This document shows positions 4,450 to 60,503 of a stretch of DNA of 64,000 bases, piece by piece. The stretch covers positions 45,289,058 to 45,353,057 of the forward strand of contig CM049310.1 of the NCBI GenBank assembly GCA_026874595.1, written 5' to 3'. The notes beneath the pieces are model-generated. The model was not told the origin of the DNA, made no database searches, and was given only the letters and a program-made list of their open reading frames with translations. Made by a program: the position numbers and the translations under genes. Within the stretch, counting starts at the first letter, position 1. Each line of letters begins with the position of its first letter. Origin of the DNA: Sipunculus nudus (Eukaryota; Annelida; Sipuncula; Golfingiida; Sipunculidae).

Positions 4450-4741
4450 TTCATGTGGTTTAATCATTATAAAATCACAGGAAAAGTGACCTGCACCTTC
4501 TCTTGGAAAAAAAGTGATTTTATTTAAAATAATTTTGTGTTTGTCCTCTCAGGGTTTGTTTGATTTTGTTGATCATTATGTAGATATCACACACTTCACA
4601 TGGACATATGAACAAACAGGACAGCAAACACCGATGAAAGCATAACCTTTGACACAAGATTATGAAGATTTTTGTAATATATTCAAAGAAAGTAGGGTCG
4701 ACCATGGATGTTTAGTCATGTTTTATTTGTTGTTTTTTCAG
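4107..4741 (+). other. Kinesin intron with a (TA)n microsatellite
   Basis: Phase-0 intron from GTAAGT to TTTTTTCAG. It contains a (TA)n run at about 4371-4446 and no other coding signal. Confidence 0.85.
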
Positions 4742-5915
4742 TCTGAAGATGATGAGTTTGCAAAGCTCAAAGAAGACACCAAACTGCCAAGACAATCTGC
4801 CAGCGTAGAAAGTGATGACTTCCAGGATTTTGAATCCTACCAGGCTGACCAAGCCAATGCTAAATTCCCACCAACAGAGGGTGCTAGTTCTGCTGTGAAC
4901 GGGGATATTTCTACGGGAATGCCCCACTCATCAACCAATGACAGCTTGGTTGACGTGGCCACCAAAGGGTGTGTGGCTTCCAGCATAACATCAAGTGGTT
5001 ACGGATCACAAGCAGTATCCATCCAGACATTGTCGTCTGAAGATTCAAGTAGTGTGCGCAGTATGAGCATAGATGAAACACCTGAACAAGATGTGAAGAA
5101 AGACAGTGCTGTGAAATCTAATGACAAGATGGAGGAGAATGGTGACTCGAAAAGTAACGAGAAGGCAGTCCTACCACCAGTTAGTAATTTAATTGACACA
5201 GATTGTCCGTCAAATCTTGGTTCTCCAATAAAACCAGAGAATACAATACTGGAGGACTCCCAGGACCCTGAAAATCCTAAAACCATCGATGAAGAATCTA
5301 AGGTAGCCTTGAATAGTGATAGTAATGGAAGCACAGTGAGTAAAGCAAAGGTTCAAACTCCGTCAAAAATTTGCCAAAACACTGACATTCTAGCCAGCAG
5401 AGGCAAGCCAAAGAAGCCTCGTTCACGCATCAAGAAAATAAAGGAACCAGTTGTGGATGTGTACAGCGAAACTGCCATGGAAGAGTTGGAACGACTGGGG
5501 GAAGGTAGCGAAGAAGATGCTTCAACAAGTTCATTTGATGAAGCTGCAGAGGGTAGTGACTCTGATCGTGAACTAAGGCCAGTCAAATCTACCACAAACC
5601 TTCTGGAAACCAGTTCTGTCCCAAGTCAGCCGTCTTCACTGCCACATAGAAACTCAGCCTCGCAGCAGGACGTAAGCCTGGTCCAGTCTCCAGACTCTGA
5701 TAGCGGTCGGTCTGGAGATGAAATTTTGAATAAAGATCGTGATCATGGACTTGTCAAAAGTAGTAGTTTGAAGAAGCTGAGAAACGATTCAAGGAATTCT
5801 CGTGTCGGCCCATCCCCATTGAAAGCTACATACAGACCGGCATCCATGTATGAAATCTCCGGAGCGCTCGGAAGTACTGACAGTATAGACAGACAGGAGG
5901 AGGCACATCAGTCTG
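4742..5915 (+). CDS. KIF13B: Kinesin-3 (KIF13B/Khc-73-like), large disordered-tail exon
   Basis: This 1174-nt exon encodes about 391 residues. It starts at SEDDEFAKLKED after TTTTTTCAG and ends in phase 1 at TCTG|GTTAGT. The open frame extends upstream into the intron, but that part is not coding. Composition is low-complexity Ser/Glu/Asp/Lys, typical of an intrinsically disordered, phosphorylation-rich linker. A basic patch (about residues 222-238, around KPKKPRSRIKKIK) is followed by an acidic helix-like stretch (around AMEELERLGEGSEED). No folded domain is recognised. In KIF13B the equivalent tail binds cargo adaptors and is regulated by phosphorylation, but no specific motif is asserted here. 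Confidence 0.85.
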
Positions 5916-7034
5916 GTTAGTGCTCTTAGAAACATCAGCTGAACATTCATGGCATGCCTGACATTGTGTATAACTGGCTACTTTATATATGACTTACTTG
6001 ATCTGTCACCTAAGGATGGAGGGGTTTTGTGCCCAAATTACTGATGAAAGTTAAATAATTTTCTGTCTTGTCTTTTTGATGGGTTTTTCATATTTCTGTG
6101 CTTAGCATAAACAGGTGTTTTACCACCCTTCAGCTAGAGGTCATTTCTTATCAAAATGATCCTCTTCTATTTGGAGATTTTGCTGATGGCTGGGACTACT
6201 TTTCTTAACTGTAAAACTTCCAAAAATCAAAATTTGTTACATTTCAAGGAAACACCTTCTGTACACTTCAGATGCCATGCTCACAATATATTGCTTATTC
6301 TGTGGAGTCTGAAAAATACACCCATGTTATGTCATAAAACAATTCTGATCCAACAAATCTGAATGGACTACATGACCCTCTTCCCTTCATTTATACCTAT
6401 GCTGCTGGTGTATTTAGAAGCCCCTTGTGCATTGTTTAGCTATGATTTCTGTGCCTACAAGCCTTAACCAGCAGTCGTACACTTGCAAGTCTTGATTCTG
6501 GCAAGTGTGTTGATTTACCTGTCTCTGACATTATCTTCAGTTATACTTGTCATGTATGTGTTCATGTATGCTTCACCATGGGAGAGATTGTGTTTTGTCA
6601 GATCCATTTACTCAACTGCCAGTCACTGGGAATCAGCATCAAATTTACCACATTTGCTTGCTGTATTTTTAAATTGTCTGAAAATTTTATCAACCAATCG
6701 ACAAACTAATAATAGATAGAGATCCCACTATTCACCTGTTCTAACCAGTCTGCTTACTCTTCTGTCAGTAGATGATTAGATTAACATTCTGTAAACCAAT
6801 ACTTAAACATACCCATAATTGACCTGAGAAGAATTGTATATAGCCTTTTTTTAGGTAAGTACAGTGCAATCAATTCTACAGTATTTGGACATATTGATTG
6901 TGATCCTGACTAGCTAATTTGGAGTATGGATAATAATATAAACAGTGAACCTGTTACTTATAAATGATGTATGTCTTTAATATCTTATTAAAGTATAGAT
7001 GATATAGAGTGACCTTTGTTACTTGCTACTTCAG
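5916..7034 (+). other. Kinesin intron
   Basis: Phase-1 intron from GTTAGT to CTACTTCAG. Short open frames inside show no conserved content. No repeat was recognised. Confidence 0.8.
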
Positions 7035-50320: not shown

Positions 50321-50773
50321 CCAGAAAGGAGGGGATCCAGGTTGAAAAATTTTGGTTTGAAACCCTGGGTAAAAAAAATACGGTTGTTTAGGCTAAAAAA
50401 ATTGTGGGGGAGTCAGGATTGTCAGGACACCCCCCCCCCCCCCCCCCCCCAAACTGGATCTACAACAGCTATACACACCACAGGTGCTTGAATCCCTTTT
50501 TGTTCAAATATTGGCTTAAACAGTTTCCTATCAACCCTGCCCTTTTAACCAGTAAATAATATGCTTGTCAGCCTGAGTAACTTCATATAAAAAAATTAAA
50601 AAGAGTTTCACCCTTACTTCATCAACAAAGACACGCTTGGTTTTAAGCACAAAAACAGGTTATTAAGTTTTCTCAGAAAGTGTCAAAACAATGAGTATGA
50701 GCAATATATGAGGGAACCCTCATGTGTACACACCAGTGGAGTTCTTTACTCAAAATTCTGTTATTCTTTCCAG
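50321..50773. other. Non-coding interval before the multi-MLLE exons
   Basis: Contains hAT-like debris (GGGGATCCAGGTTG near 50332) and a poly-C tract at 50430-50450. The last 20 bp form a good acceptor (TTATTCTTTCCAG). No RNA-recognition-motif exon was seen. Confidence 0.6.
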
Positions 50774-50996
50774 CCATATTTATGACTCAGCAGAGTATAG
50801 GTGGCGCCACCTTACCCAGCACTCATGAAGTTCTGGCTGATCACGTCTACACAGCAGTGCGGGAGCTAGCACCAGCCCAGGCTGATCATGTGACTGGCAT
50901 GCTGCTAAATCTGGACAGCCAGGCCCTGCTGCAGATGCTGACAGACAAGTCGTTACTACAGGACAAGGTGCACCAATCGCTGGCTGCCCTCAACAG
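50774..50996 (+). CDS. Multi-MLLE (PABC-domain) protein, exon with MLLE 1
   Basis: Exon between TTATTCTTTCCAG and AACAG|GTAAAG. It encodes I-F-M-T-Q-Q-S-I-G-G, then a complete MLLE domain: EVLADHVYTAVRELAPAQAD, H-V-T-G-M-L-L-N, and DSQALLQMLTDKSLLQDKV. This is the fold at the C-terminus of poly(A)-binding protein, which binds PAM2 peptides. The usual K-I-T-G-M-L-L-E is H-V-T-G-M-L-L-N here, and the Phe that stacks in PABPC1 (in ERLFPLI) is Tyr, so binding may differ. The first codon is split, so an upstream exon is expected. If not, Met at 50782 or 50722 could start the protein. The acceptor makes the first option likelier. Confidence 0.85.
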
Positions 50997-52415: not shown

Positions 52416-52549
52416 TAAGCCTTCAACCTATCATTCATCATATCCAGATCATGGCAGCAGTGGTTCAGATCAGAAGAAAGAAGAATTAGGAGAAGTTCTT
52501 TTCTTCAAGGTGGCCTCAATAGAGTCTGAACTGTGTGCCCAAATTACAG
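52416..52549 (+). CDS. Multi-MLLE protein, exon with linker and first half of MLLE 2
   Basis: A 134-nt exon after TTATTCCAG, ending ATTACAG|GTAAAT in phase 1. A Ser/Tyr-rich linker of about 20 residues (KPSTYHSSYPDHGSSGS) leads into GEVLFFKVASIESELCAQ and I-T-G. This is the first two helices of an MLLE domain; compare the family pattern GExLFPxIxxxxPxLAxKITG. The aromatic pair L-F-F keeps the PAM2-stacking Phe. The domain is completed by M-L-L-E at the start of the next exon. Confidence 0.88.
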
Positions 52550-52904
52550 GTAAATGTTACAAACAGTAAATTACCCAGTGGCATGATTATAATCTTGAAC
52601 AGAGGTAGCTGTGGTTATAAATTGTAAACTGTCCATATCTGGTACAAGTACAGTAATACATTTTAAAGCCAGGTATTCCTCTGCCTTATCTATAGACAGG
52701 TTTGGGTATTTTACTGTTAAAAACCTGTTTTTTTACATTAAAGTGTAAAAAACTGTAAATAGTTGTAAAAACTGTTATTTATTTTATCCTTATTTAGTTT
52801 ATCCTTACATGTATATTTGAAACCTCTGATATATTAAGTAAGGTTATAGCATAAGGTTTATTAGGTCATATATGTACACAACATTATTTCTTTGAAACTT
52901 CATG

Positions 52905-54800: not shown

Positions 54801-57350
54801 TTTTTAGCTCAGCTGACTGTAAGTCATCTGAGCTATAGCGATCTCTCTTTGTCCGTCCTCCGTCTGTCTGTCCGTTAACCTGGCAAAAATCATAACCCCT
54901 AGACCTAGAATCTTGTAACTTGACATTCTGAGAGGTCCATGAAAAATCTCCTTGGAAACCAGAAATCAGGTCTCTGTTACCCATATCGTTCGAGCTATGG
55001 GGCCCCAAAGTACCCCCCAGAATAGACAAAACTTTCATACAAAAACTTCAATATCTCATTAACTACATCACTGATGGTCATGATTTTTGGCATACATATT
55101 GATCATGAGATGTTCCATCAGTTCCTGCAGACTGGTGGCGCAACCTGTATTTTTTTTTATTTTTTTACGAATTGTTTTTATCTATTTTTGAGACCTTTAA
55201 AAATGTGAACATCTGTTAACAGGGCACAAATCGTAAAGACTGGACCTAGAATCTTGTAACTTGACACACTGAGAGACCTTTGAAAAGTCTCCATGGAAAC
55301 CAGAAATTAGGTCTCTGTTACCCATATCCTTTGAGCTATAGGGCCCCAAAGTACCCCCCCAGAATAGTCAAAATTTCATACAAAAACTTCAATATCTCAT
55401 TCACTACATCACTGATGGTCATGATTTTAGGCATACATATTGATCATAAGATGTTCCATCAGTTCCTGCAGACTGGTTGCGCCACCTGTATTTTTCGATT
55501 TTTTACGAATTGTTTTCTCTATTTTTGAGACCTTTAAAAATGTGAACATCTGTTAACAGGGCACAAATCGTAAAGGCTGGACCTAGAATCTTGTAACTTG
55601 ACACACTGAGAGACCTTTGAAGTCTCCATGGAAACCAGAAATTAGGTCTCTGTTACCCATATCCTTTGAGCTATAGGGCCCCAAAATACCCCCCCAAAAT
55701 AGTCAAAAACTTCAATATCTCATTAACTACATCACTGATGGTCATTGTCTTTGGCATACATATTGATCATGAGATGTTCCATCAGTTCCTGCAAACTGGT
55801 GGTGCCACCTGTATTTTTCGATTTTTTACGAATTTTTTTCTCTATTTTTGAGACCTTTAAAGATATGAACATCTGTTAACAGGGCACAAATCATAAAAAC
55901 TGGACCTAGAATCTTCATTCTTGACACACTGGGAGACCCATGAAAAGTCTCCATGGAAACCTGAAATTAGGTCTCTGTTACCCATATCCTTTAAGCTGTA
56001 TGGCTCCAAAATACCACCCCCCCCCCCCCCACCCAGAATAATGAAAAATTTGATACAAAAACAGCAGTATCTGAATAACTACAACACTGATGGTCATGAG
56101 TTTTGGCATACATATTGATCATGAGATTTTTCATCAGTTCCTGCAGACTGGTGGTGCCACCTGTATTTTTCGATTTTTTAAGAATTTTTTTCTCTATTTT
56201 TGAGACCTTTAAAAATGTGAACATTTGTTAACAGGGCACAAATTGTAAAGACTGGACTTAGAATCCTCATTCTTGACACACTGAGAGACCTTTGTAAAAA
56301 AACCTCCAGGGAAACCAGAAATTAGGTCTCAGTTACCCATATCCTTCGAGCTATAGGGCCCCAAAGTACCCCCCAGAATAGTCAAAAATTTCATACAAAG
56401 AGATCATGAGATGTTTCATCAGTTTCTGCAGACTGGTGGCTCCCTGGAAACCTGGAATTAGGTCTCTGTTACCTATATTCTTCAAGGTGGGGCTTGTTTC
56501 AAATTTTACGAATTTTTTTCTCTATTTTTGAGACCTTTTAAGATGTGGTTATCTGTCAACAGGGTACAAATCGTAACAACTGGACCTAGAATCTTCATTC
56601 TTGTCATGCAAGGAGGCCAATGAAAAGTGTCTGTGGAAACCTGAATTTAGTTCTCTGTTTGCCATATCCTTCAAGCCATAGGACTCCGAAGTATCCCTCA
56701 GAATAATGGACAATTTGATACAAAAGCTGAAGTATCTGAACAACTAATGCAGAGGTCACCATGATTCTTTGCATGGATATTGATTATGGAGTGTTTCATC
56801 AGTCTTCAGACTGGTGGTGCCACCTACATTTTATTAAATTTTTCGAATTTTTTTCTCTATTTTTGAGACCTTTAAGGATGCTGTCATCTGTTAACGTGGC
56901 ACAAATTGTAACAACTGGACCTAGAATCTTCATTCTTGTCATGCAAGGAGGCCCATGAGAGTGTCTGTGGAAACCTGAAATTAGGTCTCTGTTACTCATA
57001 TCCTTCACGCTATAGGACTCCGGAGTATCCCTCAGAATAATGGAAAATTTGATACAAAAGCTGAAGTATCTGAACAATTAATGCAGAGATCACCATGATT
57101 CTTTGCATGAATATTGACCATTAAGTGTTTTTATTAGTTTCTGCAGACTGATGGAGCCACCTGTATTTTTTTTTAAAGTTTATGCATTTTTTCTCTATTT
57201 TTGAGATATATAAATACAGACACAGTCTTGATCTATTCTTTAATCTGTTTGATGCTTCAGTTGAATGGGTATATACTACCATTCAGATGATAAAATTTCC
57301 TTTTGCGAATCTCTTCCCAGTCAGCTGAGCGTCATGACCCAGGGGTCACT
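54801..57350 (+). repeat. AGCTCAGCTGAC-family repeat, copy 3, expanded to about seven units
   Basis: Starts TTTTTAGCTCAGCTGACTGT, then GTCCGTCCTCCGTC. About seven units of 320-350 bp follow, each beginning GTTAACAGGGCACAAATCGT or a variant (near 54873, 55215, 55553, 55875, 56228, 56555, 56891). The right end CAGCTGAGCGTCATGACCC (from 57322) matches the right end of copies 1 and 2. The AT-rich half of those copies is absent. Open frames here are repeat translation. Confidence 0.88.
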
Positions 57351-57392: not shown

Positions 57393-57605
57393 GGATGCTG
57401 TTGGAGCTGGAGATACAGCAGTTGGAAATGTTGGTCAGTGACCAAGAAAAACTGGAGCGGGCAGTTACAGCAGCCAGACAGGAGTTTATCAACAGTCTAC
57501 CTCAAGATATTAAAGCAAACCCACCTCGGGAAGATGCAGCACTGGGTGACCTGGTCTACCGAAAAGTGCACAAACAGTACCCTTCAGAGGCTGACAGGAT
57601 TACAG
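57393..57605 (+). CDS. Multi-MLLE protein, exon with second half of MLLE 2 and first half of MLLE 3
   Basis: A 213-nt, phase 1-1 (symmetrical) exon between TTCTCTGATCAG and ATTACAG|GTAAAT. It opens with M-L-L-E-L-E and QQLEMLVSDQEKLERAV, completing MLLE 2. A linker (around LPQDIKANPPRE) follows, then ALGDLVYRKVHKQYPSEAD and R-I-T-G, which open MLLE 3. Splitting at G|MLLE on both sides suggests the exon arose by tandem duplication of a half-domain/linker/half-domain unit. The last 37 nt of this exon are also the seed of the 44-bp minisatellite that follows. Open frames in other phases here are shadows. Confidence 0.9.
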
Positions 57606-58636
57606 GTAAATACATAAACTGTACCCTTCAGAGGCTAACAGGATTACAAGTATATACTCAAACTGTACCCTTCAGAGGCTGACAGGATTACAGGTAAATA
57701 CATAAACCGTACCCTTCAGAGGCTGACAGGATTACAAGTAAATACTCAAACTGTACCCTTCAGAGGCTGACAGGATTACAGGTAAATACATAAAAAGTAC
57801 CCTTAGAGGCTGACAGGATTACAGGTAAATACTCAAACAATACCTTTTAGAGGCTGACAGGATTACAGGTAAATACATAAACTGTACCCTTCAGAGGCTG
57901 ACAGGATTACAGGTAAATACTCAAACAATACCCTTCAGAGGCTGACAGGATTACAGATAAATACTCCAACAATACCCTTTACAGGCTGACAGGATTACAT
58001 GTAAATACATAAACCATACCATTCAGAGGCTGACAGGATTACAGGTAAATACTCAAACTGTACCCTTCAGAGGCTGACAGGATTACAAGTAAATACTCAA
58101 ACTGTACCCTTCAGAGGCTGACAGGATTACAGGTAAATACATAAAACGTACCCTTAGAGGCTGACAGGATTACAGGTAAATACATAAACCATACCATTCA
58201 GAGGCTGACAGGATTACAGGTAAATACTCAAACTGTACCCTTCAGAGGCTGACAGGATTACAGGTAAATACACAAACAGTACCCTTCAGAGGCTGACAGG
58301 ATTACAGATAAATACTCCAACAATACCCTTTACAGGCTGACAGGATTACAGGTAAATACATAAACCATACCATTCAGAGGCTGACAGGATAACAGATAAA
58401 TACTCAAACTGTACCCTTCAGAGGCTGACAGGATTACAGGTAAATACACAAACAGTACCCTTCAGAGGCTGACAGGATTACAGATAAATACTCTAACAAT
58501 ACCCTTTAGAGGCTGACAGGATTACAGGTAAATACACAAACCGTACCATTCAGAGGCTGACAGGATTACAGGTAAATACACAAACCGTACCCTTCAGAGG
58601 CTGACAGGATTACAGGTAAATACACAAACCGTACAC
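57569..58636 (+). repeat. 44-bp minisatellite made from the exon's own splice donor
   Basis: The unit is the last 37 nt of the exon (57569-57605) plus the first 7 nt of the intron. Donor-equivalent positions are 57606 (real), 57650, 57694, 57738, 57782, 57825, 57869, 57913, 57957, 58001, 58045, 58089, 58133, 58176, 58220, 58264, 58308, 58352, 58396, 58440, 58484, 58528, 58572 and 58616, so 24 units. Spacing is 44 bp, except two of 43. GT is kept in 20; four (57957, 58308, 58396, 58484) read AT. Sixteen keep CAG|GTAAAT exactly. Confidence 0.97.
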
Positions 58637-58872: not shown

Positions 58873-59006
58873 GTATGCTTTTGGAAATGGAACCTCAACA
58901 ACTACATTCATTGCTGGAGGACCAGGAAAAATTTAATGCCAAAATGAATCAGGCAGCCAAGCAATTAGAAATGAGAGAGTCACCTGGTCGATGTGCTTTG
59001 TCATAG
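58873..59006 (+). CDS. Multi-MLLE protein, last exon: second half of MLLE 3
   Basis: The exon after TTATTTAAATAG completes the split Gly and encodes M-L-L-E-M-E, QQLHSLLEDQEKFNAKMNQA and AKQLEMRESPGRCALS, then TAG at 59004-59006. This finishes the third MLLE domain and leaves only about 13 residues after it. The four visible exons total 233 codons plus stop. No RRM, HECT or other partner domain is visible, so this is neither an ordinary poly(A)-binding protein nor a UBR5-type ligase in the visible part. Likely a cytoplasmic binder of PAM2-containing proteins, by inference from the fold. Confidence 0.88.
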
Positions 59007-59100: not shown

Positions 59101-60257
59101 TGTGTATGTAAAACTTTTTGTCTTTAAATAAGTGTGAAGTGTGTGCAATAGGGTGTATTTTTTATTTGGGAAGACATTTAATTTTCAGATCTTAATTTTG
59201 AGACCTTTAATGTTTAAGAGTGCATACAAACATAAATATTCAGAACATTTGTAACACCTTTATACTTAAGTCATAAAAAATGAACAATTATTTTCTGGAA
59301 TTATGTGAACACTTATGATGCATCTACATTAAACAATATTAGATACTGACTGCATGGTTGCCCTTGTGAATAGGTACCAAATCACAGCCATTGTAAAGTG
59401 TCATATAAAAAGTCGTGACTTCGTACTGACAACTAAGCATGGGCATAACAAGGTGTTGAGATGGCCAGTTGTGATGGATGCTCTACTGACTTACCTATAC
59501 AACTCCTATTTAAACATCTGGGAGCGAGTATAGAATCCGGTATACATGGACGAGGTTATGGGTGTTTACGGACGGACGTAATGATGTTAAGGATTCCTGT
59601 AATGGAGAAGTAAGAGGCATATCGATGTCATATCATCAGGCATGTCATGGCTCATGTTGATTACTACTAATATGAGACGGCTCAGTCAGTTTACATCAAT
59701 CATGGCAATGAAGACCGGATTCTATACTCGGGCCAACATCTGAATATCACCCCATTCACATGGAAAATGCAAACCGTTTTCAAACCGTTTTGAAAACGTT
59801 TTTGTGCAATCACACAGCAATCCAAACTGTTTTTGCCAAAGTGCTTTGGATCAAGCCCAGGATGTGGTTGAAAGGGAATTTGCTTCTTTTATATCACAAT
59901 AAAATGTCAATTAAGTATGTGTCCAGAATTTTATTGTCAATAATGTTGTAGAGTTAGTCTACAATGAATAATATCTTACCAGAGACATGAGACGATGACC
60001 GCTGAACAACACAGGCTCTTCTGCAGGGCTCAATAGCAGCAGCTTGTCGAGATCACCTTTGTCATATTTGGCGGTTTCTTATCGTCTGGCTAGCTGCACT
60101 TCCGGTCTTAGGCTGGTCATACACTTGTACTGTAGACCCCTACCTGCTCTATCCCATTAAGCCAGTTGTACAGATGAATTATGTAAAAATGCTTTGGTCT
60201 TGTTTTCCTGATCGAGTAAACGCCCTGACGCAAGAAGAAAACAATTAAATCTAGTAT

Positions 60258-60503
60258 GAACCTGTTTTGCTCGTTAATATGAGTGAAACTATTTTGATTG
60301 TTAATATGTCAAAGTGAACCTGTTTTTGATCGTTAATATGTCAAAGTGAACCTGTCTTGCTCTGTAATATTTTAAAGTAAACCTGTTTTGGTTGTTAATA
60401 TATCAAGGTTTACCTGATTTGATTGTAAATTTGTCATAGTGAACCTGGTTTGATTGTTAATGTGTTAAAGTGACTCTTTTTTACTTTTAATATGCCAAAT
60501 GCA
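60258..60503 (+). repeat. Minisatellite, unit about 31 bp, about eight copies
   Basis: Degenerate copies of AACCTGTTTTGATTGTTAAT followed by ATGTCAAAGTG. Copies begin near 60259, 60290, 60317, 60349, 60380, 60412, 60443 and 60473. Confidence 0.8.

Follow-up and report, generated by a model that had tools for sequence, protein, structure and literature searches.

A minisatellite of donor-bearing 44-bp units at the exon 3/intron 3 boundary of an MLLE-family gene model in Sipunculus nudus

Which splice donor is used when the end of a coding exon, donor motif included, is repeated many times directly downstream of itself, and what do these repeats mean for the gene? The question is raised by a stretch of 64,000 nucleotides from Sipunculus nudus (assembly GCA_026874595.1, contig CM049310.1, forward-strand positions 45,289,058 to 45,353,057), called the window in the following and numbered from its first letter. 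Read directly from its sequence, an array of period 44 with 24.3 copies and 88% matches (Tandem Repeats Finder, 64,000-nt window) extends over 57569-58634, its 24 unit copies being arranged head to tail. A preliminary description had correctly defined the unit as the last 37 nt of an exon plus 7 nt of intron: the seed copy (57569-57612, plus strand) comprises exon positions 57569-57605 and intron positions 57606-57612 (GTAAATA), and the real donor of exon 3, with +1 at 57606, lies within this copy 1. The 23 extra copies occupy 57613-58622 of the same strand, their donor-equivalent positions running from 57650 to 58616, and a partial 25th copy of about 12 nt (58623-58634, plus strand) places the end of the array at about 58634 and not at 58636 as first given.

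The 24 donor positions had been described as lying behind the real donor; their number holds, with the real donor counted among them, so that 23 are extra. The step between them is the expected 44 bp in 21/23 cases and 43 bp in 2/23. GT is retained at 20 and CAG|GTAAAT at 16 of the 24 positions, the real donor counted in, which agrees with the earlier counts. GT is missing at 57957, 58308, 58396 and 58484, and four further positions (57650, 57738, 58001 and 58089) keep GT within an altered motif. When up to two mismatches were allowed, GATTACAGGTAAATA occurred 25 times in the window (24 times in the array, once at exon 2) against 0.41 occurrences expected from shuffles, so the ladder of motifs is not due to chance. 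Copies of the unit are confined to the intron side of the exon 3 boundary.

The gene around the array was modelled with four phase-consistent exons on the plus strand, exon 1 being possibly preceded by others in the gene. Exon 1 (50774-50996) contains the complete MLLE-1 and ends at the donor AACAG|GTAAAG, its splice motifs being read from the sequence; the translation of 50737-50996 scores 51.1 bits for Pfam MLLE. Exon 2 (52416-52549) holds a linker and the N-half of MLLE-2 and ends at TTACAG|GTAAAT. A profile search of the stretch holding exon 2 gave no match, and the exon was found by a motif scan, using a self-devised motif set, in which an MLLE N-half had to run up to an in-phase donor; between exons 1 and 3 one candidate clearly stood out (score 11 of 13, runner-up 6). 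Exon 3 (57393-57605, 213 nt) carries the C-half of MLLE-2, a linker and the N-half of MLLE-3, and exon 4 (58873-59006) the C-half of MLLE-3 and the stop codon. Phases are consistent at 3/3 junctions and the frame is open from the ATG of exon 1 through the stop of exon 4. The modelled protein of 231 residues contains three MLLE stretches, scores 155.2 bits for Pfam PF00658 against a cut-off of 27, and is, judged by its sequence, a member of the MLLE family. It has this family in common with PABPC and UBR5, and carries three MLLEs.

An identification of the gene as PABPC was rejected; two PABP1-like MLLEs, both matching Pfam MLLE, are encoded at other places of the contig, namely at 77.875 Mb (matched by PABP1 chains at E 3.2e-36) and at 77.932 Mb. 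The second of these, at 77931847-77932002, is diverged and lies some 57 kb away from the first, on the opposite strand. Naming the gene via RRM or HECT motifs was likewise given up for want of a convincing match, the motif scan of the window having returned no RNP1, no HECT and four weak RNP2-like matches only. Both MLLE-2 and MLLE-3 are interrupted by an intron at a Thr-Gly site, at which MLLE-1 and the two PABP1-like MLLEs have none. A gene-specific gain of this intron is possible, and its common position in MLLE-2 and MLLE-3 suggests that it is older than the array.

Does copy 1 hold the real donor, and did the exon seed the array? By itself, exon 3 reaches an MLLE score of 34 bits. When it is ended at donor 1 and joined to exon 4, the whole protein scores 75.3 bits and the MLLE match (residues 41-100) spans the junction at 70/71. 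Splicing from donor 1 to exon 4 would thus rejoin both halves of MLLE-3, which supports copy 1 as the real donor. Additionally, the tail of exon 3 lies inside the region matching solved PABP and UBR5 MLLE chains (24 chain sequences at E<=1, best 1.2e-10). The exon is therefore the likely ancestor of the array, in line with the earlier proposal that a real donor had acted as seed.

The 37 exonic nt are matched exactly by units 17 (58271-58307) and 21 (58447-58483). The preliminary description had noted one such exon-identical unit, near 58264; the identity holds over these 37 nt, but there are two such units, and both have AT in place of GT at their own donor. Copy 1 and units 17, 21, 23 and 24 retain the exon-like start CAC, and the first three bases of units 2-9 alternate between CAT and CTC. 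The longest exact internal repeats measure 97 and 87 bp, and repeats are spaced by 175, 176 and 351 bp, corresponding to four- and eight-unit blocks. Positions 57394-57700 were searched against the 1.43-Gb assembly by a method whose repeat counts are lower bounds; at least 10 matches were obtained, all those listed lying at the array locus. A search for relatives in viral contigs gave 17 stretches that fitted the pattern, 0 of which were confirmed.

The predicted pairing with U1 is -8.3 kcal/mol at 16/24 array donors, namely the real one and 15 of the 23 extra ones, and the donors of exons 1 and 2 reach the same value. The remaining eight array donors range from -1.6 to -4.0. Among 3,615 GT sites on the same strand of the window 1.3% pair with U1 as well as this, 30 of them outside the array. 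The score is a pairing energy and not a trained splice-site score, and by it the real donor is not separable from its 15 copies. Donor 2 was considered as the most crippled competitor and dropped, since despite its two changes it has the best value (-4.0) of the eight altered sites.

With donors of equal predicted strength, the choice would depend on their position. The introns flanking exon 3 measure 4,843 and 1,267 nt, and use of the last donor would leave an intron of 257 nt. The intron limit reported for exon definition is ~250 nt (PMC9225289). In the same work, five minigenes, each having a pair of identical strong donors and 365-nt flanking introns, were spliced at the upstream donor only, and a genome-wide preference for the upstream donor was seen among near-equal pairs with long introns; when both donors were weakened, larger constructs skipped the exon (PMC9225289). 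For a human set without an equal-strength filter, use of the downstream donor is given for about 60% of 4,171 events (PMC9225289). As the flanking introns exceed ~250 nt and the donors are equal, exon definition predicts use of donor 1, although the rule comes from two donors in human cells and is applied here to 24 donors in a different animal. The claim that the cell must pick the first donor can be upheld in this form, as a prediction for equal donors with long introns (PMC9225289). The upstream-only use in the published minigenes implies that choosing the first donor needs no special device. A masking of the later donors by RNA structure was also considered, and folding of 57540-57740 revealed nothing unusual (z -0.35). 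At the same time, the equal predicted U1 pairing of 15/23 extra donors means that leakage could be large.

What leakage would cost can be read from the sequence for each position. Donor 2 would add 44 nt and shift the frame, giving 109 residues from exon 3 onward with the end in exon 4. Positions 3-24 would all lead to the stop at 57680-57682 after 95 residues; this TGA (plus strand, frame of exon 3) is the in-frame stop that had been predicted for the third donor onward. Harm had been expected to start there; it would already begin with donor 2 and its frameshift in the last exon. MLLE-3 would be destroyed by splicing from any of the 23 later positions, four of which lack GT. The stop would precede the junction by 11 nt with donor 3, by 55 nt with donor 4 and by at least 99 nt with donors 5-24, of which 16/20 have GT. 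Nonsense-mediated decay usually follows a 50-55-nt rule, by which transcripts from donors 2 and 3 would escape, donor 4 would be borderline and donors 5-24 would be targets. Loss of message as the sole alternative to the first donor, as first claimed, is thus overstated: it is predicted for donors 5-24, but not for donors 2 and 3.

Altogether, the following course of events appears probable. A tandem duplication of the 44-bp exon tail with its donor at the exon 3/intron 3 boundary would have started the minisatellite, which then would have enlarged within the intron in two- and four-unit blocks. As the donors are equal and the flanking introns long, exon definition would select the donor nearest to the upstream acceptor, that is copy 1, and the downstream donors would be mostly silent, some leaking into truncated forms. 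The array would then be mainly a passenger without a selected function, seeded at the exon 3 boundary, with copy 1 as the predicted splice donor.

Alternatively, the extra donors could form a functional ladder of decoys, in which downstream U1 sites compete with donor 1, ladder isoforms or intron retention scale with copy number, and array length would set the amount of full-length protein. We regard this as unlikely. It would profit from the 15/23 extra donors that equal the real one in predicted U1 pairing, and there is precedent for both of its elements: a cryptic donor was able to induce intron retention by disturbing the real donor (PMC8706089), and the intronic array TERT VNTR6-1 acts as a splicing switch (PMC11830802). 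Against this, the account of the former work also gives no retention for cryptic donors at other positions (PMC8706089), and use of donor 1 is what exon definition predicts. Conservation within the array does not single out the donors either. The intact donor 9-mer is found in 15/23 extra copies, and 22/36 nine-column windows are at least as well preserved, the donor window itself counted in, so that a column comparison revealed no selection to keep the donors, their motifs being no better kept than the remainder of the unit. There is some variability at the two junction G columns: they hold 3/19 derived states over the whole unit (p 0.053) and 3/7 in its 3' part (p 0.011, the region being chosen post hoc), which could reflect weak selection against decoys. 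The donor motifs are thus not preserved, and their purging is no more than hinted at; being neither preferentially kept nor clearly purged, they fit a passenger. A tighter constraint on the core of the unit (3/19 variable columns at 18-36 vs 8/17 at 1-17; Fisher p 0.07) is not claimed.

In a stronger form of the decoy idea, which we consider quite unlikely, the array is a copy-number dial: the U1 site of each unit lowers the share of full-length mRNA or causes retention of intron 3, length polymorphism sets the dose of MLLE-3, and decay of donor motifs in some copies is the counter-response.

It is very improbable that the array serves as a landing site for U1, suppressing premature cleavage at downstream poly(A) signals (telescripting) or helping to define exon 3. 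With 16/24 units being strong predicted U1 sites in about 1 kb and two ATTAAA downstream of the array in intron 3, the ingredients are present, and deep-intron contacts of U1 can alter exon inclusion (PMC11289892). Intron 3 is however short (1,267 nt) and lacks AATAAA, whereas the longer intron 2, with four AATAAA and seven ATTAAA, has no donor ladder.

Self-renewing recursive splicing, in which TTACAG|GTAAAT acts as an acceptor abutting a donor and stepwise removal recreates the same donor, is hardly credible. CAG and GT are juxtaposed in 16/24 units, and the unit contains CTGAC, which we take to be branch-point-like by its consensus; yet CTGAC stands only about 11 nt from the AG, and pyrimidines make up a fraction of 0.35-0.45 ahead of the AG in the 24 units vs 0.55-0.80 at the four modelled acceptors, the weakest of which is that of exon 4 (0.55). 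An assembly artefact has the slightest chance, given that adjacent units differ at a mean of 4.96/44 positions and that the longest exact internal repeat of 97 bp lies in a contig of 93 Mb, although the copy number of the assembled array may be off.

The donor of exon 2, TTACAG|GTAAAT, offers an internal comparison, as it is a paralogous donor without an array. No copies of the exon 2 tail (20/26 or better) are present within 2.5 kb downstream, and a remnant array at this donor was accordingly rejected; what is left over is a match of 10 nt. Behind the donor, intron 2 starts with GTAAATGTTACAAACAGTA, and this start (52550-52570) includes the 10-mer ACAAACAGTA, which the exon 3 unit also has in its initial part, at a nearly equal offset from GTAAAT. 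In the window ACAAACAGTA is confined to the intron 2 start and the array, and of 20,000 random 34-mers from the window only 0.23% resemble the intron 2 start as closely as the unit in its exon form. The match may be due to chance, to an old shared donor flank that helped to seed slippage, or to sequence exchange from the array. Two findings argue against an old shared flank: 4% of random 34-mers match intron 2 as well as the exit of the array does, and no likeness is seen over longer stretches (0.41 of controls as good).

The neighbourhood holds further repeats. Upstream of exon 3, tandem arrays with units of about 341 bp (54874-56393) and of 334 bp (56501-57206) stop 186 bp before the exon, which is thus sandwiched between arrays. 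Downstream of the gene there is a minisatellite of 31-bp units (60257-60473). A distant open stretch of 424 codons (4646-5917, plus strand) has no Pfam match at E<=0.1, and its codon score is circular, the stretch having belonged to the training set.

With 16 donors that share a core motif and lie at most about 1 kb from a single exon, the locus is a natural test of spliceosome choice, for which the published minigenes with equal donors had two (PMC9225289). Clean use of donor 1 would strongly support cross-exon proximity from a natural case; otherwise the locus would represent a natural copy-number-dependent splicing dial. It is also an example of a tandem array that was probably coding-seeded, with copies only on the intron side.

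The array recalls several known systems. An earthworm paper with similar key words deals, as far as its account goes, with intron arrays and not with donor arrays. The model of Rogers, intron gain via tandem duplication of AGGT, is represented by a 24-bp case in fission yeast and by ATP2A1 (PMC4974935). AG|GT lies inside 16/24 of the present units. Unlike in that model, however, the unit is not exonic on both sides, since the junction is followed by GTAAATA and not by GTATGCT as at the start of exon 4, and the MLLE-completing acceptor, before 58873, lies outside the array and was not supplied by a duplicate. A Rogers-type gain was therefore rejected, as the unit does not run on into exon 4, and intron 3 seems to be older than the array. 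TERT VNTR6-1 is a 38-bp intronic repeat with alleles of 24-27 and 40.5-66.5 copies that affects splicing (PMC11830802). Its effect is tied to a G-quadruplex, whereas a sequence check found GGG to be absent throughout the present array, and donor amplification does not figure in the abstract's account of VNTR6-1 (PMC11830802).

The closest likeness is to a minisatellite that, like the present one, starts close to an exon end. A donor minisatellite is already known from human IFI6/6-16, and others may be in print beyond those covered by our literature search. Arrays of this kind start at or near an exon end; in IFI6, about 26 units of about 12 bp, similar to the donor consensus itself, start close to where exon 2 ends. 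Two of the downstream units serve as alternative donors (G1P3; Turri, Cuin and Porter 1995; PMC4526556). The array described here similarly starts 37 nt before the modelled end of exon 3 and its units carry donor motifs (GT 20/24, CAG|GTAAAT 16/24), but the unit is 44 bp long and includes 37 nt of coding exon. Judged by anatomy alone, it would be a splice-donor minisatellite of the IFI6 kind, striking in its size and coding seed, yet of a known type and most likely a tolerated passenger.
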